The translations under genes and the position numbers were made by a program. The notes below the pieces were generated by a model. That model worked only from the letters and a program-made list of their open reading frames with translations, did no database searches and was not told where the DNA came from. From a virus: a DNA stretch of 44,144 nucleotides. Shown here in pieces: positions 1 through 33,280 of this stretch. The stretch covers positions 1-44,144 of IMG/VR virus record IMGVR_UViG_3300037071_003248. The stretch is one strand, 5' to 3'. Position 1 is the first letter of the stretch. Each line of letters starts with the position of its first letter.

Positions 1-179
1 AATCGGCCACCAGCAACGTTACCCACGCTTTCCATCTCGGATCCGTTGCTCAGTATTTCGGCGGCCTGATGCCGACCAAATGGGGCGTATGGGTGCTGAA
101 TAACTCAGGTGTGGCGCTGAACAGCACCGGCGGCAACCACGAGTTTAAGTATCGGACTATTAAGTACGAGAGCAGCTAA
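1..179 (+). CDS. Phage structural protein, C-terminal 58 residues only
   Basis: An open frame enters from the left edge and stops at TAA 177-179, giving 58 residues that end in HEFKYRTIKYESS. The segment alternates hydrophobic and polar residues, with Gly, Asn and Thr turns (for example NNSGVALNSTGGNHE), which looks like a beta-rich virion or tail protein. A GTG-started LamG-like gene follows after 3 bases, so the two are probably co-transcribed. The start and the N-terminal domain lie outside the window, so no specific function can be given. Confidence 0.6.
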   Translation, partial: SATSNVTHAFHLGSVAQYFGGLMPTKWGVWVLNNSGVALNSTGGNHEFKYRTIKYESS

Positions 180-182
180 TCC

Positions 183-935
183 GTGGGCACTAATGTCGAC
201 GATAACTCCAATTATTTCCGTCAGACCGCCCCGGCAGTAGTAGCGCCGCCATTCACGGTTGGCATGTGGATTAAACCTAATGCCGCAACCAACGAATGCT
301 CTTGGGCTTTAGGTGGCACCGGAGCTTCGGTTTCCTATCGTATCTTTACCAGCGGCGGCGGCGTCAACATCAGCAACCATGACGGCACCACTGGTACCAA
401 TGCGCAGATAGCGTCCCCGGCGGTTGTGACCGGGGCCTGGATGTATGTTGTAGCTAGGGTGATGTCTACGACGAACCGTAAGATCTCAGCTGTAACTTCG
501 GTTGCCGGCGTTCAGCATGCCAGCAGCGTTACCAGCGCGACTGCGCCAACGTGTACGCAAATGAGCATCGGCACATGGTATACTAACGCCAGCGCAAACC
601 AGTTCAGCGGCCATATTGCCGAGTTCTTCTTTGCCGACGTGGACGTTCAGGGCGACGGCGCTCAGTTGACCGATGAGTTAGTGATGCAGCTAGCCTTCCG
701 TGGCCCATGGAGCGTCTCGCATCTAGTGCCGCGGATTCTCGAGTACATTTCGTTTCGTTCTGTGGTGGCTCCCACCGGGGGTATCATCATGGCACCGGCC
801 TCTGATTTCTATCAGAAGGGGGCGACTTCTCGGCCCTGGACGAATACGGTGGCGGCTACTCTTATCAGCGACCATCCTCCGCTGTATGATGATTATGTTC
901 GGCCCAATCAGATTAAGAAGTTTGTTCCAATCTAG
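183..935 (+). CDS. LamG/concanavalin-like jelly-roll phage protein
   Basis: This 250-residue protein starts at GTG 183, three bases after the preceding stop. The first 170 residues resemble a concanavalin-like (LamG) beta-sandwich: PFTVGMWIKP, a WMYVVARV strand followed by a variable loop, MSIGTWYTN, and the final strand SGHIAEFFFADVDV, a typical LamG ending. The remaining 80 residues end in PPLYDDYVRPNQIKKFVPI and have no fold I recognise. In phages such domains are usually glycan-binding decorations of the virion. The neighbouring repeat protein starts 16 bases downstream with a GGGAGG ribosome binding site, so both are probably in the same surface block. The exact role is inferred. Confidence 0.65.
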   Translation: MGTNVDDNSNYFRQTAPAVVAPPFTVGMWIKPNAATNECSWALGGTGASVSYRIFTSGGGVNISNHDGTTGTNAQIASPAVVTGAWMYVVARVMSTTNRKISAVTSVAGVQHASSVTSATAPTCTQMSIGTWYTNASANQFSGHIAEFFFADVDVQGDGAQLTDELVMQLAFRGPWSVSHLVPRILEYISFRSVVAPTGGIIMAPASDFYQKGATSRPWTNTVAATLISDHPPLYDDYVRPNQIKKFVPI

Positions 936-951
936 CTAGGGAGGTGCTGCC

Positions 952-3828
952 ATGGCTTTCGGCTTTCTAGTACTACCCCTCGCTAGCTCTGCCGAGATCA
1001 CCGGCAATGCGACCATCAACGAGGCGGCTGACACTTCCACCTCGGCTGCCGTTCTCGCGCTTTCCGCAACCGCCTCCATAACTGAGGCGGCGGATACCTC
1101 TACGACCGCGGCGACGCTGGCTATCAGCGCCACGGCCACAATCACCGAGGCGGCTGATACCTCCACCGCAGCTGGTGCCCTGGCGATTGTCGGCACCGAT
1201 ACGACCACCGAAGCGGCCGACACGCTCACCTCTGCGGCCGCACTGGCCATCTCGGCAACGGCTTCGATTAACGAAGCCGCCGATACCTCCACGTCTGCGG
1301 CGGTGCTCGCTCTATCCGCTACAGCCTCCATCACCGAGGCTGCCGACACATCCACCGCATTGATGACTCGCGATCTGTTCGCGACCGCGAGCGTCGACGA
1401 GACCGCAGACACCTCGACCAGCGCCGCGGCTTTGGCGATCTCTGCTACGGCTAGCATCAACGAGACAGCGGACACTCTGACTTCGGTTGCTGCGCTCGCC
1501 TTGGCCGGTACGGAAACTAGCACTGAGCAAGCCGACACCCTTAGCGCGCTGATGACGCGCGATCTGTTCGGCACGTTCACAGCGACCGAAGCTGCCGACA
1601 CGCTGACGTCTGCGTCTATTCTCGAGGTGCTGGCGACGCTGACGGCGACTGAGGTTGCCGATACCCTCACCAGCGCCGCTGGCGTGGTCGTTGGCGGCTC
1701 GCTGGATAAGACCGAAGCTGCCGATACGCTCACGTCCGCCAGCGTTCTAGCTATCAGCAGCGCATCAACGATTTCCGAGACCGCCGACACTCTGACGTCG
1801 GCGGCGGCGCTCGCCATTGTCGGCCTCGGTGGCGGCAACGAGCAAGCCGATACCATCTCGGCTGCTGCCACGCTGGCGATATCTGCAACGGCTTCGATTA
1901 ACGAAGCGGCGGATACCGCCACGACGTTGATGACGCGCGATCTGTTCGCGACCGCGAGCATCAACGAAACGGCAGACACCCTCACCAGCGCCGCTGGCGT
2001 GGCGGTGGGCGGCTCTCTTGATGCGACTGAGGTAGCGGACACCCTAACAGGAGTCGGCGCTCTAGCGCTTTCTGGTGCGGTCGACGCAACAGAACTGGCC
2101 GACGATGGATCCAGCACCGGCGAACTGGCGATTATCTCTAGCTCGTCGCCAAACGAGACTGCCGACACCCTAGACGCTGCGGCGGCTCACGATCCGTTCG
2201 GCGATGTGAGTGCCACTGAGGCGGCAGATACGCTGGACTCGGAAGGCGCGTCTGTCATCTCCGGCAGCGCCGATATCTACGAGACGCCTGACACCATCAC
2301 TACCACGACGATCCTTCTGATCGTCGGCACGGCCGACTCTACCGAAATAGCAGATACAGTAGATGCCGTTGGCGGCAACACCGGCGAAGGCGTCGTCATC
2401 GCGACAGAGGTAGCGGATGATGTCGTCGCGGCCGGCGGCATTCCGATCTTTGCGCTGTTTAATGAATCGGAAGCTGCCGACACCTTGAGCGGCCTGGGGC
2501 TGTTCGATCTGTTCGGCACGGCGGATCTCACCGAAGCCGCCGACACCAGCGACTCGGCGGCGGTGCTGGATATCACCGCGACCGCGGATATCAACGAGAC
2601 TGCTGACACTTCAGACGCCACGGGCTCTATCGACATCGTTGCGTCTATAGAGGTGACGGAAGCGGCTGACACGCTGGATGCCCTAGCCGGCGTCTTCGTT
2701 TCCGCCGAGCTTGAGGCCACCGAAGTCGCAGACACGATGTCTGCTGACAGCTTCCTGACAACGAATGGCTACGTCGACGCCACGGAGGTTGCGGACGACT
2801 GCGTTTCTGACGGTATCATCCCGCTCAACGGCGGGGCCGAGATGGCCGAAAATAGCGATAGCCTTGACGCTTCTGGGCAACTCGCCATTGTGTCGTCGGG
2901 GGTCGATGCCACCGAGGTGGCCGATAGCCTCGACGCTGCAGCCATACTGGAGATCCTAGGAAATGTTGAGTTTACGGAGTCTGCCGACTCGAACCAAGCG
3001 TCTGGCGAAGTTGCGATTGCGGGTTCGATCGCAATTGATGAAGCCGGAGACACCCTCGAATCATCCTCGGTCCTGCTGGTTACTGCCAGCCTGGATTCGA
3101 CGGAAAGCCCGGACGGAATCTCTAGCGCGGCGGGCCTCGGCATCATCGCGCTCCTTACCGCAACCGACGTTTCGGATAGTTTCGAATCAACCGGCGCACT
3201 TGCGCTCACCGGGTCTGTCGCCGGAACTGAGGCTGGTGACACTCTAAGCTCTGACGCCGTCAGGGGCCGCGAAGCCGATGTAAACGCCACTGAGGCTGCG
3301 GACACTGCGTCTGCAGCTGGCGCATTGGCAATTGTCAGTAGCGTGTCAGTAGCCGAGGTTGCTGACACGACTTCCGCGGCTGGCATCCTGGCGATTTCCG
3401 GCACGTTGTCGGCGACCGAGACAGCCGACACTGTAATCACTGATTCCCTACTGGGTCGCGCCGCTTCTGCCTCGTTGTCTGAGGCTGCCGATACGCTTCA
3501 GGCTGCCGGGGAGACGCCCATCGTGGCGACTCTCAATAGGAACGAGACAGCCGATACCGTTACCTCCGTTCTTCTCCCCGGAAGAACCGCAGTATCGACT
3601 ATCACGGAAAGGCGAGATACTATCTCTGCCGCCGGACTTAATCCGGAAACGCCGATTATCATTCCGCAGGGGCGGCGAGTTAATCTGGTTGGCGTTCTTA
3701 GAGATAGGATTCACATGGTCGGCAGGATCCACGGCGGGCCTAATGCGGGGAATGTTGTGGAGTTCCCGAGAATATCTCTGGTCGGCAGGACGATGACGGG
3801 TATTAGGCTGATTGGGAGAATGAAGTGA
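952..3828 (+). CDS. Giant 21-residue tandem-repeat protein (about 42 EAADT repeats)
   Basis: This 958-residue protein has a short hydrophobic N-terminus, then about 42 tandem 21-residue repeats (residues 20-899) and a basic 59-residue tail. The consensus is roughly GTASxTEAADTLTSAAxLAIS. The E-x-A-D-T core is the best conserved part, and a strand-like hydrophobic run (LAIS, LAIV) ends each unit. Three units (6, 9, 15) carry ALMTRDLF or TLMTRDLF in place of the SAAxLAIS half. The tail has a different repeat, LVGR/MVGR/LIGR, in a C-terminal beta-type motif. The regular acidic repeat suggests a beta-solenoid or an extended virion-surface fiber. I know no named family for it. The start is ATG 952 behind GGGAGGTGCTGCC. 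The stop overlaps the next gene (GTGA). Confidence 0.8.
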   Translation: MAFGFLVLPLASSAEITGNATINEAADTSTSAAVLALSATASITEAADTSTTAATLAISATATITEAADTSTAAGALAIVGTDTTTEAADTLTSAAALAISATASINEAADTSTSAAVLALSATASITEAADTSTALMTRDLFATASVDETADTSTSAAALAISATASINETADTLTSVAALALAGTETSTEQADTLSALMTRDLFGTFTATEAADTLTSASILEVLATLTATEVADTLTSAAGVVVGGSLDKTEAADTLTSASVLAISSASTISETADTLTSAAALAIVGLGGGNEQADTISAAATLAISATASINEAADTATTLMTRDLFATASINETADTLTSAAGVAVGGSLDATEVADTLTGVGALALSGAVDATELADDGSSTGELAIISSSSPNETADTLDAAAAHDPFGDVSATEAADTLDSEGASVISGSADIYETPDTITTTTILLIVGTADSTEIADTVDAVGGNTGEGVVIATEVADDVVAAGGIPIFALFNESEAADTLSGLGLFDLFGTADLTEAADTSDSAAVLDITATADINETADTSDATGSIDIVASIEVTEAADTLDALAGVFVSAELEATEVADTMSADSFLTTNGYVDATEVADDCVSDGIIPLNGGAEMAENSDSLDASGQLAIVSSGVDATEVADSLDAAAILEILGNVEFTESADSNQASGEVAIAGSIAIDEAGDTLESSSVLLVTASLDSTESPDGISSAAGLGIIALLTATDVSDSFESTGALALTGSVAGTEAGDTLSSDAVRGREADVNATEAADTASAAGALAIVSSVSVAEVADTTSAAGILAISGTLSATETADTVITDSLLGRAASASLSEAADTLQAAGETPIVATLNRNETADTVTSVLLPGRTAVSTITERRDTISAAGLNPETPIIIPQGRRVNLVGVLRDRIHMVGRIHGGPNAGNVVEFPRISLVGRTMTGIRLIGRMK
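1009..3648 (+). repeat. In-frame 63-bp tandem repeat array (about 42 units)
   Basis: About 42 consecutive 63-bp units each encode one 21-residue repeat. Most are diverged in DNA, but some pairs stay close, which indicates segmental duplication: the stretch around 1258-1285 recurs near 1887-1915, and the MTRDLF-coding segment near 1369 recurs near 1550 and 1927. One unit (unit 31, near 2893) appears to be 22 residues long. The first half of the array is more uniform than the second. Confidence 0.85.
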
Positions 3829-4187
3829 GCAAGAATAACTTCCCGATGTATGCTGGTGACACCCTGTCTATTGTCATTACCGTATTAGATGATGCCGGGG
3901 AGCCGGTGGATCTTTCCGATGCAACTTCAATTCGCTGGCAAATGGCGACATCCATCAGGGCTGCTGAGCCGTTGGTCGTTAAGGAGCTAGGAGACGGTAT
4001 CGAATTGGTAGATGACACCACTTCCGATTTCGAAGTTTCATTGTTGTCTGAGGACACTGAGAATATTGCGGCTGGAACTTATTACCACGAGGCTGAGGTT
4101 ATTCTCGAGACCGCCGGACTGGATCCGATTACTTCTACCGTCATTGGCGGCAACATCCTGCTTCGCCCGTCGCTGATTAAGGCCTAA
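3825..4187 (+). CDS. Ig-like beta-sandwich phage protein (BppU-N-like)
   Basis: This 120-residue protein starts at GTG 3825, which overlaps the preceding TGA (GTGA), so it is probably translationally coupled. It opens with NFPMYAGDTLSIVITVLDD and GEPVDLSDATSIRWQM, then IAAGTYYHEAEVI and VIGGNILLRPS. This is the strand pattern of small Ig-like domains found in phage baseplate and fiber proteins, such as the BppU N-terminal domain (F/M-Y-xGD at the start, G-x-Y-x-H-E late). It may be a small connector or accessory protein for the repeat protein encoded upstream. The fold is inferred from pattern only. Confidence 0.6.
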   Translation: MSKNNFPMYAGDTLSIVITVLDDAGEPVDLSDATSIRWQMATSIRAAEPLVVKELGDGIELVDDTTSDFEVSLLSEDTENIAAGTYYHEAEVILETAGLDPITSTVIGGNILLRPSLIKA

Positions 4188-4189
4188 CA

Positions 4190-4495
4190 ATGAAGCCCTT
4201 CCCTAAGCCTATGGTTGAAGAGATAGGGGTTACCAATCTGGGACCAGTGCCCAATGGCATGTCCTTTCTTGACGCAACCGTGGCGATGCGGCAGCAGCGT
4301 AAGTACACGATTAACCCTAACTGTCAGTCTCGACGGCTGACTGTTTGCGAGACGATGCGAGAGATTTACCGGGCCGCTGAGAATATTCCGGAACCTCATA
4401 AGCAGATAATTCAGGAGTTGGCGGCTGCTGGCTTTGACTATGGTAAGAGAATGAACCAGCGGATGGTTGATTTGAAGGCGGCGCTTAGTGCTTAA
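4190..4495 (+). CDS. Small phage protein of unknown function
   Basis: A 101-residue protein starting at ATG 4190, two bases after the preceding stop. It opens MKPFPKPMVEEIGVTNLGPV. The C-terminal half is helical and basic (LTVCETMREIYRAAENI, IIQELAAAGFDYGKRMNQRM). No motif is recognised. It sits between the Ig-like protein and the glycosyltransferase, and its last codons overlap the GTG start of the latter (4488), so the three are probably one translational unit. Confidence 0.6.
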   Translation: MKPFPKPMVEEIGVTNLGPVPNGMSFLDATVAMRQQRKYTINPNCQSRRLTVCETMREIYRAAENIPEPHKQIIQELAAAGFDYGKRMNQRMVDLKAALSA

Positions 4496-5411
4496 GGTTC
4501 TCACTTGGCTTTGGGATCAGCCCGGCGGACGCACGCGGTACACTGCGGGTCACGTTAATATCTGGGCTGCTATGGTCGAGCGGCATCTTTCCCTGCCTCA
4601 CACGCTTGCATGCGTCACTGATACCCCTGAGGGCTTACGTGACGACATCGAGATCATTGTGCCGCCGGGTGATTTCGTTGGCATCGAGACTCCCACTTGG
4701 GGTGGCGGGCTGCCGAATTGCTTCCGCCGTTTGGCGATGTTTCGCCCGGACGCCGCAGACATCTTTGGCGAACGTTTCGTGTGCATGGACACCGATTGCG
4801 TAATTGCCGATTCCCTGGACCCCCTGTTTGAGAGGGATGAGGATCTGATAATGTACCGCGGGACTAACTTCTCGCGGCCGTATAATGGCTCTATGATGAT
4901 GCTGACTGCTGGGTGTCGTCCTAAGGTGTACAATCTATTTAAACCAGAACTAGCCAGCAAGGCAGGATATCAGTATGTTGGCTCCGACCAGTCTTGGATT
5001 TCCTATGTGCTAGGCGAGGGTGAGGCGGTTTGGGGTCATGAGGATGGAGTTGCGTGGTTCGGAAGTCGCTGGAACAGAGACACCAGAATTATGTTCTTTC
5101 CTGGGCACCCCAAGCCGTGGCATTTGGTGGGGCGGTCCAAACTAGTGACGGATAATTATTACGGCGCTGAGGGTGGTCGTTGTATTATACTCAGCGTTGG
5201 CAAGACGCTTTGGCAGGATGCATTACGAGCAATGGCGGAACCTTATGATGCCGTAATCGCCTTGCCGGAGGTTGCAGACAAGTGGGCCGGTCCTCTCCGC
5301 GAGGTCTGCAATGACGAGACTGCGGCGCTGATTGCCGCCAGAATGCACGGCTTCGATGAGGTCGTAGTGTGCGGCAAGATGGGGGACGCTGAATGCGCAT
5401 TCTCGGCTTAG
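4488..5411 (+). CDS. Phage glycosyltransferase-like protein (GT-A, DxD)
   Basis: This 307-residue protein starts at GTG 4488, overlapping the previous gene. The N-terminal strand KVLTWLWDQPGGRT is followed by HVNIWAAMVERHL. A DxD motif lies in FVCMDTDCVIADSLDPLF (near residue 104), the metal and nucleotide-sugar binding signature of GT-A enzymes. Further on are GSDQSWISYVLG and FFPGHPKPWHL, also typical of GT8-like enzymes. The C-terminal 70 residues have a different composition and no clear match. The substrate cannot be read from the sequence. It may glycosylate virion proteins or alter host surface glycans. Its last 19 bases overlap the portal gene, so the two are expressed together. Confidence 0.75.
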   Translation: MLKVLTWLWDQPGGRTRYTAGHVNIWAAMVERHLSLPHTLACVTDTPEGLRDDIEIIVPPGDFVGIETPTWGGGLPNCFRRLAMFRPDAADIFGERFVCMDTDCVIADSLDPLFERDEDLIMYRGTNFSRPYNGSMMMLTAGCRPKVYNLFKPELASKAGYQYVGSDQSWISYVLGEGEAVWGHEDGVAWFGSRWNRDTRIMFFPGHPKPWHLVGRSKLVTDNYYGAEGGRCIILSVGKTLWQDALRAMAEPYDAVIALPEVADKWAGPLREVCNDETAALIAARMHGFDEVVVCGKMGDAECAFSA

Positions 5412-7141
5412 ACATCAAGCGCCTCCCAAAGCCGGTTAAGAAGCTGCAGCAGATTGACGGCCGCGGTGGCGGCTGGATCAATGTCATCCGCGAGTCGTTT
5501 CCTGGCGCCTTTCAGCACAACGTGACGCTGGAAGTTCCGAATATAACTTCATTCGGGGCAGTGTATGCATGCACAACCCTGATTGCATCAGATATTGCCA
5601 AGATGAGGATCCGTCTTGTTCAGATGGATGGCGACGGAATTTGGCAGGAGACTGAAAATCCTGCTTACTCTCCCGTGCTTCGTAAGCCAAACCATTATCA
5701 GACCCGCATTGAATTCATCAGCCGTTGGGTTTTGTCCAAGCTGCTTTACGGCAATGCGTACATCCTGAAAGAGCGCGACACTCGTGGCGTCGTAACCGCG
5801 ATGTACGTCCTTAATCCTCAGTGGGTCAAGGTGTTAGTTACTCAGCAAGGCGACGTGTACTACGAAGTTAACAAGGACGAACTTTCAAGTCAGTATTCAG
5901 AGAATGCTACTATTCCGGCTAGGAATATCATTCACGATAAGATGAATACCTTATTCCACCCGCTGGTTGGGGTGTCTCCGATCTTTGCCTGCGGCTTGGC
6001 CGCGGTGCAGGGGATGCGGATCCAGAATAACTCCGCTGGCTTCTTTGCCAACGGGGCTCGCCCCAGCGGCGTTCTCTCGGCTCCGGACGAGATTGGCGAT
6101 GAGACTGCGGCTCGACTCAAGACGTACTGGGAAGAGCAATTCAACGGGCAGAATGCCGGTAAGATTGCTGTGCTTGGTGACGGCCTCAAGTACGAGCCCA
6201 TGATGATGACGTCGGCGGATGCTCAGGTGATTGAGCAGCTGCGCTGGACGTCTGAGAATGTTTGCAGTGCCTTCCATGTCCCGGCGCACATGATCGGCGT
6301 GGGCCCGACGGAGAGCAATAACAACGTAGAAACTCGCCTGCAGATGTACTACTCGCAGTGCTTGCAGATTCACGTTGAGTCGATTGAGCTTCTGCTGGAC
6401 GAGGCGCTAGGTCTCGCCCCGGCCACCGATGCCTCTCGGCCGCTCGGCACAGAGTTCGATCTCGACGCTCTGCTTCGGATGGACACTGCTTCGCTGATCA
6501 AGGCGGAGGCTGAAGCGGTCGGTGCCGGTATCAAGACTCCGAACGAGGCTCGCTATCGTCTGGGCTTACCGCCGATTTCTGGCGGTGAGAGCGCGTATCT
6601 CCAGCAGCAGAACTTTAGCCTGGAAGCGTTGGCCAAGCGCGACGCTCAAGACGATCCGTTCGCTCCCGCTACAACCCCGGCCGCTGAGGCGCCCATTGCG
6701 CTGCCGGCCCCGGATCCGAAGCCGGCTGATGAAGCGAGGCAGATCACTGACATGGTCACGGCGCTTCGCGAGTCCATGCCGCGGGAGATCGATCCATCCG
6801 AGATCGTCGAGGGTGTGGTCGAGCGCGTCTCCACCCCGTTCGACAGCTTCTCTTCGCAGCTAGAAGACATGCGCCAGAAGTACGCCGAGCGCGAGGCTGC
6901 AAGGCTGGAGGCGGATGCTCTTGCCAGAGAAGCGCTCGAGGCTGCGCGTAGCGAGACGGAGCGGCTCGCCAGCGCCATCGAAGAGACCAACAGCATCGAA
7001 GCAGCCCGGCTCGCTCGTGAGGCTGCGGAAGCGGCTGAGCGGCTCGCCGCGGAGCAAGCCGATGCTGAGGATAAATCGGAAAGTCAGAAGCTGGCCGAAG
7101 CGCTGCGGCTGAAGTTCTTGGAGGAAGTCGATGGCGCTTGA
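5393..7141 (+). CDS. Portal protein (HK97 family)
   Basis: This 582-residue protein matches HK97-type portal proteins (Phage_portal, PF04860): YACTTLIASDIAKMRIRL near the N-terminus, PVLRKPNHYQTRIEFI and KLLYGNAYILKERD, then FFANGARPSGVLSAPD, KYEPMMMTSADAQVIEQLRW and HMIGVGPTESNNNVETRLQM. It forms the dodecameric ring at the head vertex through which DNA enters and leaves. Residues beyond 425 are an acidic, Ala/Glu-rich coiled-coil extension, making it longer than the usual 400-500 residues. It overlaps the glycosyltransferase gene by 19 bases and the next gene by 11. No terminase precedes it. Confidence 0.93.
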   Translation: MRILGLDIKRLPKPVKKLQQIDGRGGGWINVIRESFPGAFQHNVTLEVPNITSFGAVYACTTLIASDIAKMRIRLVQMDGDGIWQETENPAYSPVLRKPNHYQTRIEFISRWVLSKLLYGNAYILKERDTRGVVTAMYVLNPQWVKVLVTQQGDVYYEVNKDELSSQYSENATIPARNIIHDKMNTLFHPLVGVSPIFACGLAAVQGMRIQNNSAGFFANGARPSGVLSAPDEIGDETAARLKTYWEEQFNGQNAGKIAVLGDGLKYEPMMMTSADAQVIEQLRWTSENVCSAFHVPAHMIGVGPTESNNNVETRLQMYYSQCLQIHVESIELLLDEALGLAPATDASRPLGTEFDLDALLRMDTASLIKAEAEAVGAGIKTPNEARYRLGLPPISGGESAYLQQQNFSLEALAKRDAQDDPFAPATTPAAEAPIALPAPDPKPADEARQITDMVTALRESMPREIDPSEIVEGVVERVSTPFDSFSSQLEDMRQKYAEREAARLEADALAREALEAARSETERLASAIEETNSIEAARLAREAAEAAERLAAEQADAEDKSESQKLAEALRLKFLEEVDGA

Positions 7142-8957
7142 TGTTGATGTGATCGCAGACGCGCTGTTCGCGGGAACGACTAGACTTCTTGAGCGAAAGT
7201 TGGCTCCGGTGCTCGCGGCGAACGCGGCACTGCTAGAAGAGAATGAGCGACTTTCGCAGCGGCTCGCCCTCGTTGAGGGACGGGAAATCCCGGTGTTTGA
7301 TCCTAGTGAAATCAACGACGAGTTAGGCCATGTGAAGCGGGTTCTAGAGTCGCTGGAAGTTGATAAGCGCATCGAGGAGCGGCTCACCGGCGTCACCAAG
7401 ACACTTGAGGACGGCTTGGCTTCCATTCCGCGGCCTGAGCCGCTGCCGGACATTGACGGCATGGTTGCCAAGGCCACTGAGGGGCTGCAGGAGCGGCTCA
7501 AGGGTGTCGAGGGTACCGTTTTGGGGCTACCGACAGTCGAGGCCATAGAGGCCGCCGTAGCGCCTCTGCGCGAGGCTGTGGATGCCGTTAAAGCGGTCGA
7601 GGTTCCTGACGTGACGGGCTTGGTCGAGGCTGAGGTGGCTAAGCAGCTAGCGCCGCAGCTGTGCCAACAGGTAGGCCCAGAGGATATCGCCGCAATCGTT
7701 GCGGCCGAGGTCGACAAGATCCCAGTTCCGCAGGATGGCAAGGACGCCGAACTGCCGGATATCGCTGCGATGATCGCTGCCGAGGTTGCGAAAATCCCCG
7801 CGCCCCAGGACGGCAAAGACGCAGAACTCCCAGACATCGCGGCCATGGTTGCTGCCGAAGTTGCTAAGATTCCGGTGCCGGCTGACGGCAAGGACGCCGA
7901 GCTTCCGGATATCGCGGCGATGGTTGCGGCCGAGGTCGCTAAGATCCCCGCACCGGCTGACGGCAAGGACGCTGAGCTTCCCGACATTCCGGCGCTGATT
8001 AACGAGGCGGTCGCCCCGCTTGTCGCCGAGGCGGTTGCCCAGATTCAGCTACCGGAATTGCCGGATGTTAAGTCCATTGTCGCGGAAGAGGTTGCCAAGA
8101 TCCCTGCGCCGGTCGATGGCAAGGACGCTGAGCTTCCTGACATTCCAGCTTTAGTCGCTGAGGCGGTTGCCCAGATTCAGCTTCCGGAGTTGCCAGACGT
8201 CAAGTCTCTGGTCATGGAAGAGGTCGCTAAGATCCCCGCACCGGCTGACGGCAAGGACGCTGAGCTTCCCGACATTCCGGCGCTAGTTGCCGAAGCGGTT
8301 GCGCAGGTTCCGCTCCCTGAACTGCCTGACGTCAAGTCACTTGTCGCCGAAGAGGTGGCCAAGATCCCGCCCGCGCGCGATGGCAAGGATTACGACCCTG
8401 CGGTGCTTGACGAGCTTAAGTCTGGGATTGAAGCTCGCTTTGCCGAGCTAGATGCCGATCACAAGCAGATCGGCGGAATCGTAGCCGGAGAAATCCGGAG
8501 CGCTCTAGACAGTCTCCGAAAGGAAGTGCCGCAGCTGGCGGCGCCGACGTTCCGTCTGAACGAAGACGGCGAACTCATCGCCAAGAATCAGAACGGCGAG
8601 ACGTTCAATGTCGGCAAGGTCCGTGGCAATGACGGCCTGGGCCTGGATGACATCGAGGTTGATTACGACGGCGAACGGCGCATCAGCTTTAAGATGCGCG
8701 GAGCCGGCCGTGAGACAGAACCGCGCACCTTCGTTCTGCCTATCTCGATTTACCGTGGTGTGTGGCAGCAGGACCAGACTTACGAGAAGGGTGACAACGT
8801 GACTTGGGCTGGCTCTATTTGGGTAGCTCAGACGGACACTGCGGCCAAGCCGGAAACCAATAGCGACTGGAAGCTGGCGGTTAAGCGCGGCCGCGACGGC
8901 AAGGATCGTGTAGCGCCTCCCACGCCCAGTGCGCCTACGCGAGGGGGTCGGCAATGA
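7131..8957 (+). CDS. Repeat protein with collagen-like linker and carbohydrate-binding-like C-terminus
   Basis: This 608-residue protein follows the portal with an 11-base overlap. Residues 1-190 are coiled coil (LLEENERLSQRLALVE). Residues 200-420 carry six copies of DGKDAELPDI, spaced 25, 25, 25, 52 and 44 residues apart and separated by amphipathic AAEVAKIPAPA helices, with a decayed seventh (DGKDYDPAV). The end is a module common in alphaproteobacterial phage proteins: FRLNEDGELIA, IYRGVWQQDQTYEKGDNVTW, AKPETNSDWKLAVKRG, with the W-Y-GD-V-W pattern of CBM5/12-like carbohydrate binding domains. It occupies the usual place of protease and capsid genes but is neither. I infer a head-associated or neck fiber. 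Confidence 0.7.
   Translation: MALDVDVIADALFAGTTRLLERKLAPVLAANAALLEENERLSQRLALVEGREIPVFDPSEINDELGHVKRVLESLEVDKRIEERLTGVTKTLEDGLASIPRPEPLPDIDGMVAKATEGLQERLKGVEGTVLGLPTVEAIEAAVAPLREAVDAVKAVEVPDVTGLVEAEVAKQLAPQLCQQVGPEDIAAIVAAEVDKIPVPQDGKDAELPDIAAMIAAEVAKIPAPQDGKDAELPDIAAMVAAEVAKIPVPADGKDAELPDIAAMVAAEVAKIPAPADGKDAELPDIPALINEAVAPLVAEAVAQIQLPELPDVKSIVAEEVAKIPAPVDGKDAELPDIPALVAEAVAQIQLPELPDVKSLVMEEVAKIPAPADGKDAELPDIPALVAEAVAQVPLPELPDVKSLVAEEVAKIPPARDGKDYDPAVLDELKSGIEARFAELDADHKQIGGIVAGEIRSALDSLRKEVPQLAAPTFRLNEDGELIAKNQNGETFNVGKVRGNDGLGLDDIEVDYDGERRISFKMRGAGRETEPRTFVLPISIYRGVWQQDQTYEKGDNVTWAGSIWVAQTDTAAKPETNSDWKLAVKRGRDGKDRVAPPTPSAPTRGGRQ
7734..8381 (+). repeat. In-frame repeat array, DGKDAELPDI units
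   Basis: Six intact copies of the DGKDAELPDI-coding segment plus a degenerate seventh, with unit lengths of 75, 75, 75, 156, 132 and 132 bp. The short units differ from the long ones by an insertion reading AEAVAQIQLPELPDVKSLV, so the array seems to have grown by duplication of two different unit types. Confidence 0.8.
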
Positions 8958-22473: not shown

Positions 22474-23253
22474 ATGACGGACGTCACTCACGTTGATATG
22501 ATTGACGGCTCCTGGCCGGCGGACACCGGTACATGGAATGCCGCCAAGATCAATATGCACAAATCGGCGATCAATTCCAAGGTGGATAAGGTCGGTGGCT
22601 TGTTCATTTCAACCGTAGCCCCAAGCAATAGCTTTGGGGTGAACGGAGAATACTACTACAACACTAGCGAGTCCCTGCTGCACCTTAAGACTGCCGGTAC
22701 CTGGGACGATGGCGTGGAGTTCAACCGCAACGCTTACCAGATTTGGCTGGATGAAGGCCGCATCGGCCCAGGCGGCGGTAATGGCGTAGACGATTTCCTA
22801 GATAGCCTCGTTGGGCCCGCCGGTACCTTTAATAAATATGACGTCTCGGTGCTGCCGTCGTCGCTTGATGACAACGCGCTATATTTGCTGAGATCGTCGC
22901 CTACCCCCGCGACTTACGCCACGGCCGCAGACAGAACAATCACCGCTGCAGATCTCCTAACCACCATCATCGTTAGGGATTGCGCCGGCGCCAGCCGCAC
23001 TGACACGCTGCCCACTGCGGTGCTGCTAGTTGCGGCTCTTACCAATCCCGTCGTCGGTCAACGCATCGATTGCGATATCATCAACGGCTCTGACGCCAAC
23101 GAGGTAATCACCATCGCCGCTGGCTCCGGCGGCAGCTTCGACACAAACCAGACCGCCGCGAGCCGGGTTATTCCGCAGAACGCCACTCGAAAGGTGAGGA
23201 TTAGACTCACTAACGCCGGGGTGTCTACAGCTACGTATAAGGTCTACATGTAA
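22474..23253 (+). CDS. Tail fiber adaptor with collar-type repeat motif
   Basis: A 259-residue protein with TAGGTGA ahead of ATG 22474. The N-terminal DGSWPADTGTWNAAKINMHK is a typical fiber start, then FGVNGEYYYNTSESLLHLKT. At residues 88-112 stands AYQIWLDEGRIGPG, then GVDDFLDSLVGPAG, the AYxxWL-G-DFLDSL motif seen at fiber collars and followed by a beta-rich C-terminal domain (TATYKVYM end). The same motif occurs in the small adaptor at 25640. It directly precedes a beta-helix spike and may be the anchor for it. Confidence 0.72.
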   Translation: MTDVTHVDMIDGSWPADTGTWNAAKINMHKSAINSKVDKVGGLFISTVAPSNSFGVNGEYYYNTSESLLHLKTAGTWDDGVEFNRNAYQIWLDEGRIGPGGGNGVDDFLDSLVGPAGTFNKYDVSVLPSSLDDNALYLLRSSPTPATYATAADRTITAADLLTTIIVRDCAGASRTDTLPTAVLLVAALTNPVVGQRIDCDIINGSDANEVITIAAGSGGSFDTNQTAASRVIPQNATRKVRIRLTNAGVSTATYKVYM

Positions 23254-23254
23254 C

Positions 23255-25618
23255 ATGGCCGTCCTTGCTACAGACCCCAGTACTTTCGCTGCCAGGGTTA
23301 CCGCCGCCGCGTCTGGTGATACTCTTTCACTGGCTGGTGGGCAGTATGGAGTCAGGGGGCTTACGAAGGCGCTCAATAGCTGCACACTTAAAGCAGCAAA
23401 TCCTAATGATCCCCCCATCTTTTGGGGAATTAGAATCGCCGGCAGCGAGCGAATGGGATATTTCAACTCCCTCGCCGGATCATCGCCGGGGTCGGTTAGC
23501 AACCTAACCCTTGATGGAATTCACTTTATCGCTCCCCGCGTGTTTAGCCTAAGCAAGGGCGCAAATACCAACGGCGCCTATGATCTGGCCGACGATTTAG
23601 GTCGGGGTTTGTCTTGGCGTATTGCTCCCGGTACTCCCGGATTTAGAACATACGATGCCCAGGACGCCTACATGATGGCGGTTGCCGGAGTGGGCAACAG
23701 TACCAACACCTTGATCCAAAACTGTTATTTCAATGGATACGGTAGGGCTTTCTCCATTTCAGGCGGCAGCGGCTTCACGTTCCAGCAAAATACAACGATT
23801 GACCTTACGGAAGACTTTTTCTTCATTGGCGGTGGTTCCAACATCACCATCCAGTGGAACCGGCAGATCCGTTCTCAGCCTGTTTCCATGCGGGACGCAT
23901 ATCTAGGGTGGGATTACGGCAAGAGCGTCGACCAAGTCCCGCCGCCGCACTCCGACTGGTGCCAGCTTTACGGTAAGACCACCAATTTCGTTTATCAATA
24001 TAACGACATCTTCGATGACACCGAGCGGTGCCACCCGCTGTTGTGCAAGATTAGAGATGGCGGCCCCCAGGGCGGTCAGGTCATCCCGCAGAGTGGGTGG
24101 CATGTCGGCGTTAAGGTGATCAACAACTACTGCGCTTCATCGCATGGGACGCAGCTGTGGGTGAGCCATAGCGTGGCGCCAATGATGTCTCGCAACAAGG
24201 GCATTAAGGTCGGCGGCTCTCCTAGCCTTCAGGTGTCGCAAGAAACGGTTGTGAATGCTACCGTCACCAACAACGTTGGCGCATCGCTTCACTTCGGACC
24301 CAACCCGGATTCCGCTCCGAATGATCCGGTGCCGGGATGGACTAAAAGCGGCAACCAGCAAACCAACGATATTAACGTGCTGCCTTCCGGCTGGGTGGAG
24401 GTCCGTCAAAGCAAGGTCAGCGGTGGCGCTCGCTTTGCCGGGCAGTATGGTAATTCTGGTGGGGTATCTCCGCCACCGCCTCCGCCGCCGCCCCCAACCA
24501 GCACGCCGATCTTCACCACCCTTCCATTGCTTCGTCCGACTCCGACAGTGGTCACCGGGGGCAGGCTGACTGCTACGCCAGCGGTTGCGGATGGCGATCC
24601 AAATCCGACCACTTCCCATCGTTGGTTTAGGGGAGGGGTGCTGGACGCATCCATCACCGGAACGACTTATGACACGGTCACCGGTGATAACGGCGTGGAT
24701 TTCACCTATCGCACTCGAGCCAATAATGGCGTGGGCGGCAACGTGGACTCCGCGATTAGCAATACGGTTCGCGCACTGTCCCCGCCTCCGCCGCCACCGC
24801 CGGCCACGGCGCCATCATTCTTCACGGCTCCTGACTTGAACCCTAACGGCTCGGTTCTGGTTGGAGCAGTTATTACCGCTACGCAAGCTTCTGCCACCGG
24901 CGGTACTCCCATTACTCTTTCAAACAGGTGGTTCAGGGGCGGTATTTTAAACTCTGCCGTAACTGGATTAACCTACACGACAGGTACTCCCGATCTAGGG
25001 GCGGCGATCACTTACCGCACTCGCGCCAGCAATAGCGGAGGGACGATAGACTCCGCCCTGAGCGACGCTGTGATGGTTCTGTCTCCGCCGTCTCCGCCGC
25101 CTCCACCGCCACCACCGCCGCCGACCCTTCCGGATCCATTAACGTCTGGGCAGGTTGAGTTCCGCGAATTGGTCCCGGACCCGACGAAGCCGAATGATGC
25201 GAGGCGGACATTCACAATTACCGTTCCGGCGAGTTCTCCGGCTGCTGACGCCGTAGCGTTCCAGTGGAGCAGTGCGGCGGATGATGACGTCGGGCACCGC
25301 GCGATGGTAAAGCTCGACAATGTAGGGACTGACCGCGTCTGGAGGGCCCAAAGCAATTCGTCCACGTCTAACGCTCATCTCCGTTTCCCGGAGGGGACGT
25401 TCGACACGGTCCATCTTTATTACCAGTTGGCCGCGGGCGGTCAGTTCTCGCTAGCCTCGACCTACACCTTTACCGTGACTGTCCCGTTTGTCGGCGATCC
25501 CGATCCGGATCTGACACAAGTGATCGATTTAGACTTCCTTCGCCGAGCCATCACGACAGAAGGGGACGCCTTCCAAATCGTGACTAAGGATCGCGGCGTA
25601 ATCTGGACCAAGCCTTAA
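23255..25618 (+). CDS. Beta-helix tailspike with Ig-like and polyproline linkers (1)
   Basis: A 787-residue protein. Residues 1-390 are a right-handed parallel beta-helix of the pectate-lyase type: TLSLAGGQYGVRGLTKALNS, TNTLIQNCYFNGYGRAFSIS, SDWCQLYGKTTNFVYQYNDI. The family includes polysaccharide depolymerases. Proline runs (near 24470, 24783, 25095) separate two Ig-like domains of about 90 residues that share NRWFRGG- and YRTRAxN-type strands. The C-terminal part has HRAMVKLDNVGTDRVWRAQS and FRELVPDPTKPNDARRTFTI, a small beta domain also found in the paralog at 26009. No catalytic residues could be assigned. It likely degrades host capsule or O-antigen. Confidence 0.8.
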   Translation: MAVLATDPSTFAARVTAAASGDTLSLAGGQYGVRGLTKALNSCTLKAANPNDPPIFWGIRIAGSERMGYFNSLAGSSPGSVSNLTLDGIHFIAPRVFSLSKGANTNGAYDLADDLGRGLSWRIAPGTPGFRTYDAQDAYMMAVAGVGNSTNTLIQNCYFNGYGRAFSISGGSGFTFQQNTTIDLTEDFFFIGGGSNITIQWNRQIRSQPVSMRDAYLGWDYGKSVDQVPPPHSDWCQLYGKTTNFVYQYNDIFDDTERCHPLLCKIRDGGPQGGQVIPQSGWHVGVKVINNYCASSHGTQLWVSHSVAPMMSRNKGIKVGGSPSLQVSQETVVNATVTNNVGASLHFGPNPDSAPNDPVPGWTKSGNQQTNDINVLPSGWVEVRQSKVSGGARFAGQYGNSGGVSPPPPPPPPPTSTPIFTTLPLLRPTPTVVTGGRLTATPAVADGDPNPTTSHRWFRGGVLDASITGTTYDTVTGDNGVDFTYRTRANNGVGGNVDSAISNTVRALSPPPPPPPATAPSFFTAPDLNPNGSVLVGAVITATQASATGGTPITLSNRWFRGGILNSAVTGLTYTTGTPDLGAAITYRTRASNSGGTIDSALSDAVMVLSPPSPPPPPPPPPPTLPDPLTSGQVEFRELVPDPTKPNDARRTFTITVPASSPAADAVAFQWSSAADDDVGHRAMVKLDNVGTDRVWRAQSNSSTSNAHLRFPEGTFDTVHLYYQLAAGGQFSLASTYTFTVTVPFVGDPDPDLTQVIDLDFLRRAITTEGDAFQIVTKDRGVIWTKP

Positions 25619-31679: not shown

Positions 31680-32474
31680 ATGCCCGACGACGATCTGGAC
31701 TTTCTGGGGCGCCTTGCAAAACGGTCGCGGGATATTTCCTCGGTTATCGCAGTAGTTATAGCGATTGCGGCTTTTGGGTGGGTACTTTCCGGTAACATTT
31801 ACTTTAAAGAGAGCGTCGCCAACGTGGCCGGCGTCGAGACTTTGCGCGCCGATCTTAACGCCAAGCTGGAACAGTCCTCCAAGGACTTTCAGGAGTCCAT
31901 AACTAAGCTTGTGACCAGCATCGATTCTATGAATCAGCAGGTTTCAGAGGTTGTACAAAGGAGTGCCGTTGGCTCCAAGGAGAGGCAAGAGCTTATCGAC
32001 GAGGTCGCTAAGCTTAAGCTGGCCATCTCAACTGACATGGACGACTCTCCGGCAATCAGGTTCTTCAGTTCCGGAAACAAAGCGGAACCTCTTAGGCCTG
32101 GAGAGCCCATTCGAATTGGCGAGTTCGTTAGATTGACATGGAGCTTCATCAAGCTCAGAGATTGCGGCAAGTCCCAGCCTGATGATTTAATTATGGACAT
32201 TAACGGCGTTCAGGCACATCTTGCACACGCCAGCATTATTGGCGCCGACGGCAAAGGCATCGCGACCCCGGTGGATCCTAATATTAGGAACGAGATCACC
32301 TATACGGCACAGATCCCAGATGACGTTGGATTGTCTCCGGGACCGGCCAGCATTTGGGTGCAGATCGTTTACGATCCTATGAAGTGCCCCCGCCTTGGCT
32401 CAATTGATAGCCCCCGGATTCCTCTCACCCTGACTGAGGCGCTTCCGGATGATGAAAAGAAGCCCGCCAGATGA
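31680..32474 (+). CDS. Membrane-anchored coiled-coil protein, possible inner-membrane spanin-type
   Basis: A 264-residue protein. One membrane helix (DISSVIAVVIAIAAFGWVLS, residues 18-37) comes right after a short cytoplasmic stretch. A coiled coil follows (NAKLEQSSKDFQESITKLVT, QVSEVVQRSAVGSKERQEL, residues 56-110), then a beta-rich domain with PGEPIRIGEFVRLTWSFIKL and ITYTAQIPDDVGLSPGPASI. Topology (N-in, coiled coil outside) is that of an i-spanin, though it is longer than usual. It directly overlaps the endolysin gene. With the lipoprotein at 33844 it may form a two-part spanin. Alternatively it is a membrane protein of other function. Confidence 0.55.
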   Translation: MPDDDLDFLGRLAKRSRDISSVIAVVIAIAAFGWVLSGNIYFKESVANVAGVETLRADLNAKLEQSSKDFQESITKLVTSIDSMNQQVSEVVQRSAVGSKERQELIDEVAKLKLAISTDMDDSPAIRFFSSGNKAEPLRPGEPIRIGEFVRLTWSFIKLRDCGKSQPDDLIMDINGVQAHLAHASIIGADGKGIATPVDPNIRNEITYTAQIPDDVGLSPGPASIWVQIVYDPMKCPRLGSIDSPRIPLTLTEALPDDEKKPAR

Positions 32475-33280
32475 TCCCGACGCTTGAGGCGCTAGACAAG
32501 ATAGCTGGCTCTAGGGTCGACAGAGACAACGCAGCCTCGCTCATAGAGGCGTTGACGATGTACCCCTCGGCAGGCCTCGGCTTGCCGCATCGGCTAGCGC
32601 AGTTCCTGGCACAGCTGTACCACGAGAGTGGGGCGCTCAGGTACAACGAAGAGATCTGGGGCCCCACGGCGGCACAGCTGACCTATGAGGGGCGCGCCAA
32701 TCTCGGTAACACCGAACCGGGCGACGGCTATCGCTTCCGCGGTTGGGGCCTTATTCAGAACACTGGGCGTGCCAACGCCACAGCCTTCCGAGACTGGTGC
32801 TGGAAACGTTCCCTGGCATCGCCTGATTTCGCGCTGCTGCCGGAGAAGCAAGGCGATGCGCCATGGTCGGCGCTGGCGGCTATCTGGTTCTGGGACAGCC
32901 GCAACCTGAACAAGTGGGCCGATGCCGGCAACATCGAATGGATCACTAAGCTCATCAACGGCGGGCTGAACGGCTACGAGTCCCGGCTGCGCTGGCATTG
33001 GCGTGCGTCTCTGGTTCTGCTTGGGTTCGGCGTCACTGCCGCTGAGCTTCAGAAGTTCCAGTCCGCGTCCGGTCTGGTAGCCGATGGCGTGTCGGGCCCT
33101 CTGACGCGCGCAGCGCTGCACACAGCCCTGGTGAAGCTCTCCACGGCTACTCCGGTACCCTCGACGCCTACCCCGGCCCCAGCGGCCACCCTAGCCTCTC
33201 TGGAGGCACGCATTATCACACTAGAGACGCTCCCGCAGAGGATCGCTCGCCTTGAGGCAGTTGCTGGCCTAACGAGTTAA
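32471..33280 (+). CDS. Endolysin: GH19 lysozyme-like domain plus peptidoglycan-binding domain
   Basis: A 269-residue endolysin. Residues 35-175 show the GH19 (chitinase class I-like) fold common in phage endolysins: RLAQFLAQLYHESGALRYNE, with the HES Glu as likely general acid, YEGRANLGNTEPGDGYRFRG, GWGLIQNTGRANATAFRDWC, and KLINGGLNGYESRLRWHWRA. Residues 193-220 (LQKFQSASGLVADGVSGPLT) are a PG_binding_1 type repeat. A Pro/Ala linker and short coiled coil close the protein. The start (ATGA) overlaps the preceding gene. No signal peptide, so the holin must release it. Confidence 0.88.
   Translation: MIPTLEALDKIAGSRVDRDNAASLIEALTMYPSAGLGLPHRLAQFLAQLYHESGALRYNEEIWGPTAAQLTYEGRANLGNTEPGDGYRFRGWGLIQNTGRANATAFRDWCWKRSLASPDFALLPEKQGDAPWSALAAIWFWDSRNLNKWADAGNIEWITKLINGGLNGYESRLRWHWRASLVLLGFGVTAAELQKFQSASGLVADGVSGPLTRAALHTALVKLSTATPVPSTPTPAPAATLASLEARIITLETLPQRIARLEAVAGLTS

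Follow-up and report, generated by a model that had tools for sequence, protein, structure and literature searches.

The gene at positions 952..3828 (+) of the window, by which we mean the whole 44,144-base virus contig analyzed here, probably encodes an acidic β-repeat protein that acts as the virion-surface rod or spacer of a receptor-binding (tail-fiber/baseplate) cassette. Its product belongs to a large, apparently undescribed, phage-borne family of 21-residue repeats built around an ExxD turn. A rod or spacer for gripping the host is the most likely role because genes of this family are found almost always just downstream of a gene related to the garland protein of Agrobacterium phage 7-7-1. 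The genomic linkage of the repeat gene to an upstream garland-family gene is new here.

Architecture and evolution of the repeat array

The ORF at 952..3828 is intact, starts with ATG, and encodes 958 amino acids. Residues 23–905 (positions 1018..3666, +) make up 42 in-phase units with the consensus TEAADTLTSAAALAISATASI, each of 21 amino acids except for one of 22. The array is preceded by a short N-terminal segment (MAFGFLVLPLASSAEITGNATI; 952..1017, +) and followed by a C-terminal tail (residues 906–958; 3667..3828, +). Judged by eye, similar short segments stand at the N terminus of many family members (MLGFSPLASAPI..., MALGLSPLGTVPL...). The self-match of the protein reached 0.37 at a lag of 21 residues, 0.34 at 42, and 0.36 at 63, compared with a maximum of 0.147 among 200 shuffled sequences. 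The ExxD motif is present in 41 of the 42 units and is replaced by DxxD in the remaining one. The calculated pI is 4.05, and the protein contains one Cys and no Trp.

An earlier note on this DNA had described an acidic protein with about 42 copies of a 21-residue repeat, and the unit count, the lag-21 self-match above all shuffles, and the pI bear out this description. The same note had pointed to an alternative half, LMTRDLF, in three units; we located it in units 6, 9, and 15 (1360..1380, 1549..1569, and 1927..1947, all +) and nowhere else in the array. The LVGR motif said to close the protein was found in the C-terminal tail in the forms LVGV, MVGR, LVGR, and LIGR.

Units 6 and 15, which both carry LMTRDLF, are the most similar pair of the array at the DNA level (81% identity), so internal copying looks likely. 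Where two units share a residue, the same codon is used in 37.9% of cases, compared with 35.8% expected from codon usage alone. Codons are thus randomized between units, which indicates that the units diverged long ago and that the amino acid pattern is maintained by selection.

No Pfam model, including those for RTX, collagen, and ankyrin repeats, matched the window protein above any cut-off, and no NCBIfam model matched it either, in agreement with the earlier view that the repeat is unlike these three classes. The further claim that the protein has no named family is correct except for PHROG 38872, which matches over eight stretches (E = 1.7e-31) and has no function assigned.

The ExxD repeat defines a large phage family

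Peptide patterns derived from the whole window protein were too specific and returned no related loci. Relatives were sought in IMG/VR by DNA patterns for ExxD at a 63-nt spacing, and, among the matches listed, a two-unit HMM recognized the repeat in at least 173 loci (173 of the 230 fetched), nearly all of them uncultivated viral contigs. We define the family by at least four in-phase ExxD motifs at 21-residue spacing, a definition that overlaps PHROG 38872 and includes the window protein. The profile search therefore places a protein that had been treated as an isolated oddity in a family that is large and has a conserved partner gene. Across 84,980 host species, the strict DNA pattern gave 18 stretches, ten of which were real according to the HMM. 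Among isolated phages, the repeat was present in 2 of 50,697 records, Curvibacter phage P26059A and Vibrio phage 367.14, and tblastn searches with the consensus or with other family members retrieved no further isolates. Our literature search found nothing relevant on a 21-residue phage repeat, and we found no solved structure, Pfam or NCBIfam model, or paper describing the ExxD repeat.

The plan of the unit is constant across 1763 units: hydrophobic positions alternate, Ser or Thr flanks the ExxD turn, basic residues are few, and Gly or Ala occupies position −6 in 87% and position +9 in 73% of the units. Conservation of the Glu and Asp themselves is in part a consequence of the pattern with which the loci were retrieved. 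The 21-residue spacing is strict, with 1271 exact spacings compared with about 60 of 22–24 residues and only three phase-bracketed units that lack ExxD.

Family members differ in length, having between about 3 and about 105 units, and their ends are swapped. For example, the proteins of loci L029 and L088 have C termini that are 98% identical, 7 versus 10 units, and different N termini. In locus L033, a LamG domain is fused N-terminally to the ExxD repeats (E = 4.8e-12); the gene just before the repeat gene of the window encodes the same domain. Other N-terminal partners, judged by eye, are Asp-box-like and Gly-rich stretches. At the C terminus, many proteins (L061, L074, L100, L109, L115, L183, and others) have a short tail of acidic residues followed by leucines, for example DDDEAAAIAWMLAA, and further members carry repeated WTP or ENRxxxV motifs. 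All three kinds of tail may be anchoring signals. The pair L135 and L192 was considered as a clean copy-number change and discarded, because the repeats of L135, a genome-collection locus, are interrupted by a run of N, which makes its unit count unreliable. The neighboring genes across the family include tail fiber, baseplate wedge, and head-tail adaptor families.

A garland-family gene precedes the repeat gene in most loci

Clustering of the neighboring proteins revealed one small family upstream of the repeat gene, PHROG 3758, annotated as "virion structural protein." We scored this linkage with an HMM built from 11 members, taking as evaluable those loci in which 2.5 kb or more of sequence precedes the repeat gene. 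Of the 90 evaluable loci, 83 carry a PHROG 3758 gene upstream, encoded on the same strand, whereas such a gene lies downstream of the repeat gene in 2 of 99. After DNA dereplication, the upstream position held in 70 of 77 clusters. Control loci contained the gene in 4 of 57 cases, and at least three of these four carry divergent ExxD repeats. The garland-family proteins beside repeat genes have a median identity of only 35%.

The PHROG 3758 profile matched chain A of PDB entry 9RKV (E = 1.7e-12), a model of the tail fibers of Agrobacterium phage 7-7-1, where homodimers of gp014 form a garland that touches the long and short fibers (PMC12796354). This match indicates that PHROG 3758 is homologous to the garland protein gp014. 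In the work on phage Milano, garland proteins are related to the T4 gp8/A511 gp105 fold and arranged as beads on a string, the string being unknown (PMC10811340). The partner of the ExxD protein thus matches, by profile to 7-7-1, the garland/T4 gp8/A511 gp105 (BW3TFN) system of 7-7-1 and Milano, although no ExxD protein has been reported in these two phages.

Phage 7-7-1 does encode proteins with the same period in the same slot. Its gp010, two genes after the garland paralogue gp012, has 12 units with a period of 21 (autocorrelation of 0.16; shuffle maximum of 0.138). The 2012 virion proteome (PMC3517404) identified it by MS/MS under the name gp108 (37.5 kDa), a correspondence that we drew from the mass. 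The units of gp010 carry YPxY in place of ExxD, with no detectable homology to the ExxD repeat (E = 0.24). In the same location, 21-residue repeats are present in 7-7-1 gp009 and in a protein of Rhizobium phage RHEph12; the autocorrelation of the latter is below its own shuffle maximum, and its units are visible by eye. Because the 7-7-1 and RHEph12 repeats are not matched by the ExxD HMM, we call them analogous. The repeats downstream of the garland genes in these phages are of the YPxY, APMADA, and PKF types (L232, 8964–9986 and 9980–11407; L236, 7018–9117), and a 21-residue framework common to them and to ExxD is possible. A search for published virion peptides found none for ExxD members; they are known only for the analogous gp010.

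Genomic context of the repeat gene in the window

The structural module of the window is siphovirus-like. A truncated ORF at its start (1..180, +), cut by the beginning of the contig, represents the C-terminal end of a probably fiber-like protein and has a weak relative in one of the loci retrieved with the repeat, L185. The repeat gene is immediately preceded by a Laminin_G_3/concanavalin A-like lectin gene (183..935, +; E = 8.5e-7), for which a search found no close relative. Directly downstream is a gene for a 120-amino acid phrog_1084 protein (3825..4187, +); in four further loci, relatives of this protein are encoded in the same place, immediately after the repeat gene. A weak glycosyltransferase-like match (4488–5411; phrog_1962, E = 0.0039) separates this region from the portal gene (PF04860; 5393..7141, +; E = 3e-88), which marks the structural module. 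The module continues with a head-tail adaptor (starting at 8954), head closure (9767), neck (10099), major tail (10976), tape measure (12042), and distal tail (13968) proteins and a large tail fiber (15664).

Several other features of the window were noted. The gene after the portal (7131–8957) contains tandem 75- and 132-nt DNA repeats (KIPAPxDGKDAEL-like) and shows weak similarity to CBM_5_12. Its product and the portal both match PHROG 2271, suggesting that the two form a single protein in other phages. Beyond the tail genes (22474–25618), a head-scaffolding-like match (phrog_673) and a 787-amino acid protein with weak Hoc-like matches give an unusual gene order, and no major capsid protein was identified among the window genes. 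A chitinase/endolysin-like gene is located at 32471–33280 (phrog_14712, E = 2.3e-82).

The window has no PHROG 3758 match, and the contig offers only 182 nt upstream of the LamG gene; portal relatives of this phage carry neither the garland gene nor the repeat gene. Since the contig begins too late to include a garland gene and the portal relatives lack the cassette, we infer the cassette for the window phage from the family as a whole, and the repeat protein is likely to be part of a tail-fiber complex here as well.

The repeat gene of the window stands just before the portal gene, and other loci likewise have portal genes close to it; such a position would also suit the same rod mounted on the capsid or on the portal-proximal neck and used for sticking to surfaces instead of tail-tip host recognition. 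In the PHROG database, 3758 is assigned to the category "head and packaging," and 7-7-1 has capsid fibers whose protein is unknown (PMC12796354). We nevertheless consider a head or neck location unlikely, as the sole PHROG 3758 relative whose position is known to us sits on the tail fibers of 7-7-1 and the cassette of Vibrio phage 367.14 is placed between spike/baseplate and gpJ-like genes.

Structural models of the repeat

AlphaFold2, run on single chains, predicted a regular all-β structure for the N-terminal region of the window protein, with a mean pLDDT of 64 and a pTM of 0.54 (other models, 40–51), and likewise for a relative whose 50-row alignment had no gaps, with a mean pLDDT of 71 and a pTM of 0.59 (five models, 66–71). 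Both models show the 21-residue period, and the division of the unit into strands differs between runs. A Foldseek search against the PDB gave nothing at E ≤ 0.001, with TM scores below 0.5, and most of the top matches were β-solenoids; in BFVD, a predicted phage relative matched at a TM score of 0.81. The fold could be a solenoid, a hairpin stack, or a trimer.

The earlier note had suggested a long β-solenoid or a virion-surface fiber. A β-rich character of the protein is supported by the predictions, at moderate confidence, and a fiber or rod on the virion surface is very probable given the garland linkage, the tail and baseplate neighbors, the lectin-like fusions, and the proteomics-confirmed 7-7-1 analogue in the same slot. 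The long β-solenoid, however, had no significant PDB match and is best taken as one candidate fold.

The moderate AlphaFold2 confidence and the missing PDB match, together with a composition rich in Ala, Ser, Thr, and acidic residues, might instead reflect a disordered acidic linker, that is, a flexible entropic spacer between the end modules with no rod structure. We regard this as quite improbable: the strict spacing, the near-invariant ExxD, the alternating hydrophobic positions, and the Gly/Ala-restricted sites are all atypical of linkers, the pLDDT values are above 60 and not below 50, and the BFVD relative has a matching model.

Joint insertion of the two genes in a Vibrio phage

Vibrio phage 367.14 has a tail module collinear with that of Vibrio phage 97.13 except for two extra ORFs in 367.14, and this insertion consists of exactly a garland-family protein (135 amino acids) and an ExxD repeat protein (542 amino acids). 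The latter, from Planavibriovirus lipares, has the same 21-residue repeat in an EQPD form and the same pairing with a garland-family gene, but it differs from the window protein in having 14 units and other ends and in being encoded between baseplate genes and not before the portal gene. The protein of Curvibacter phage P26059A (ASJ79159.1, 394 amino acids) also has the same repeat and is encoded downstream of garland-family and fiber-like genes, near the terminase and a structural protein after the terminase. It differs from the window protein by its number of units (about 15), an FDxAxFD N-terminal segment, and an RVVLL C terminus.

The study of the Vibrio phages reported a host range of three strains, not one, for the species that has the additional ORF pair and credited this broader range to an inserted protein, the most diverse one, that was called leucine-rich repeat (LRR)-like (PMC10945359). 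As that text does not name the ORF, we infer its identity: it is probably the ExxD repeat protein of the V. mediterranei phage (L003, 7319–9365; L231). The published LRR assignment, which relied on a 10% HHpred probability and an LxxLxLxxN motif in one of the two inserted ORFs, can be practically dismissed for this repeat, because the 367.14 protein has no Pfam LRR match, the strict LxxLxLxxN motif is absent from plus-strand ORFs of at least 100 amino acids in the fetched 367.14 locus, and the protein shows a period of 21, EQPD turns, and an all-β prediction instead. The tail-fiber genes of 367.14 and 97.13 also differ (67% and 58% identity), and therefore the link between the garland-plus-repeat insertion and host range is suggestive only. 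These differences were overlooked in describing the insertion as the "only distinction" between the phages (PMC10945359).

Discussion

The proposed receptor-binding cassette with its garland and repeat genes is mobile. In the rod or spacer role that we favor, each 21-residue rung would consist of two strands of alternating hydrophobic and polar residues split by the ExxD turn, and the reach of the rod would be set by the number of rungs; 42 rungs would span about 20 nm if stacked as a solenoid at 4.8 Å. The ends would be exchangeable modules that probably anchor the rod and bear the binding surface, with lectin-like domains either fused N-terminally or supplied by a neighboring gene, and the rod would act together with the garland-family protein encoded upstream. 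A stack of 42 Glu/Asp pairs would be expected to need cations. In this reading, the protein would be a rod-shaped virion component that is attached to the tail in preference to the head and binds cations through its stacked acidic residues.

A more speculative proposal, doubtful though conceivable, is that the ExxD protein is itself the string that threads the garland-family dimers, with a PHROG 3758 dimer docking at every rung or every few rungs. The docking site would be the β-edge or the acidic turn of the rung, the number of repeats would count the garland beads, and a garland built in this way would bundle fibers or grip surfaces. If true, this would supply the string missing in Milano and account for the garland and repeat genes traveling together.

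With respect to the wider role of the ExxD protein as a rod or spacer in host attachment, our analysis ties a widespread, unannotated family that is almost absent from isolated phages to a structurally known tail-fiber protein and offers a candidate for the unknown garland connector in Milano and 7-7-1. It also calls into question both the published leucine-rich repeat reading and the idea of gene transfer with corals that rests on it. Many hypothetical proteins of environmental phages thereby gain a testable role in host attachment.
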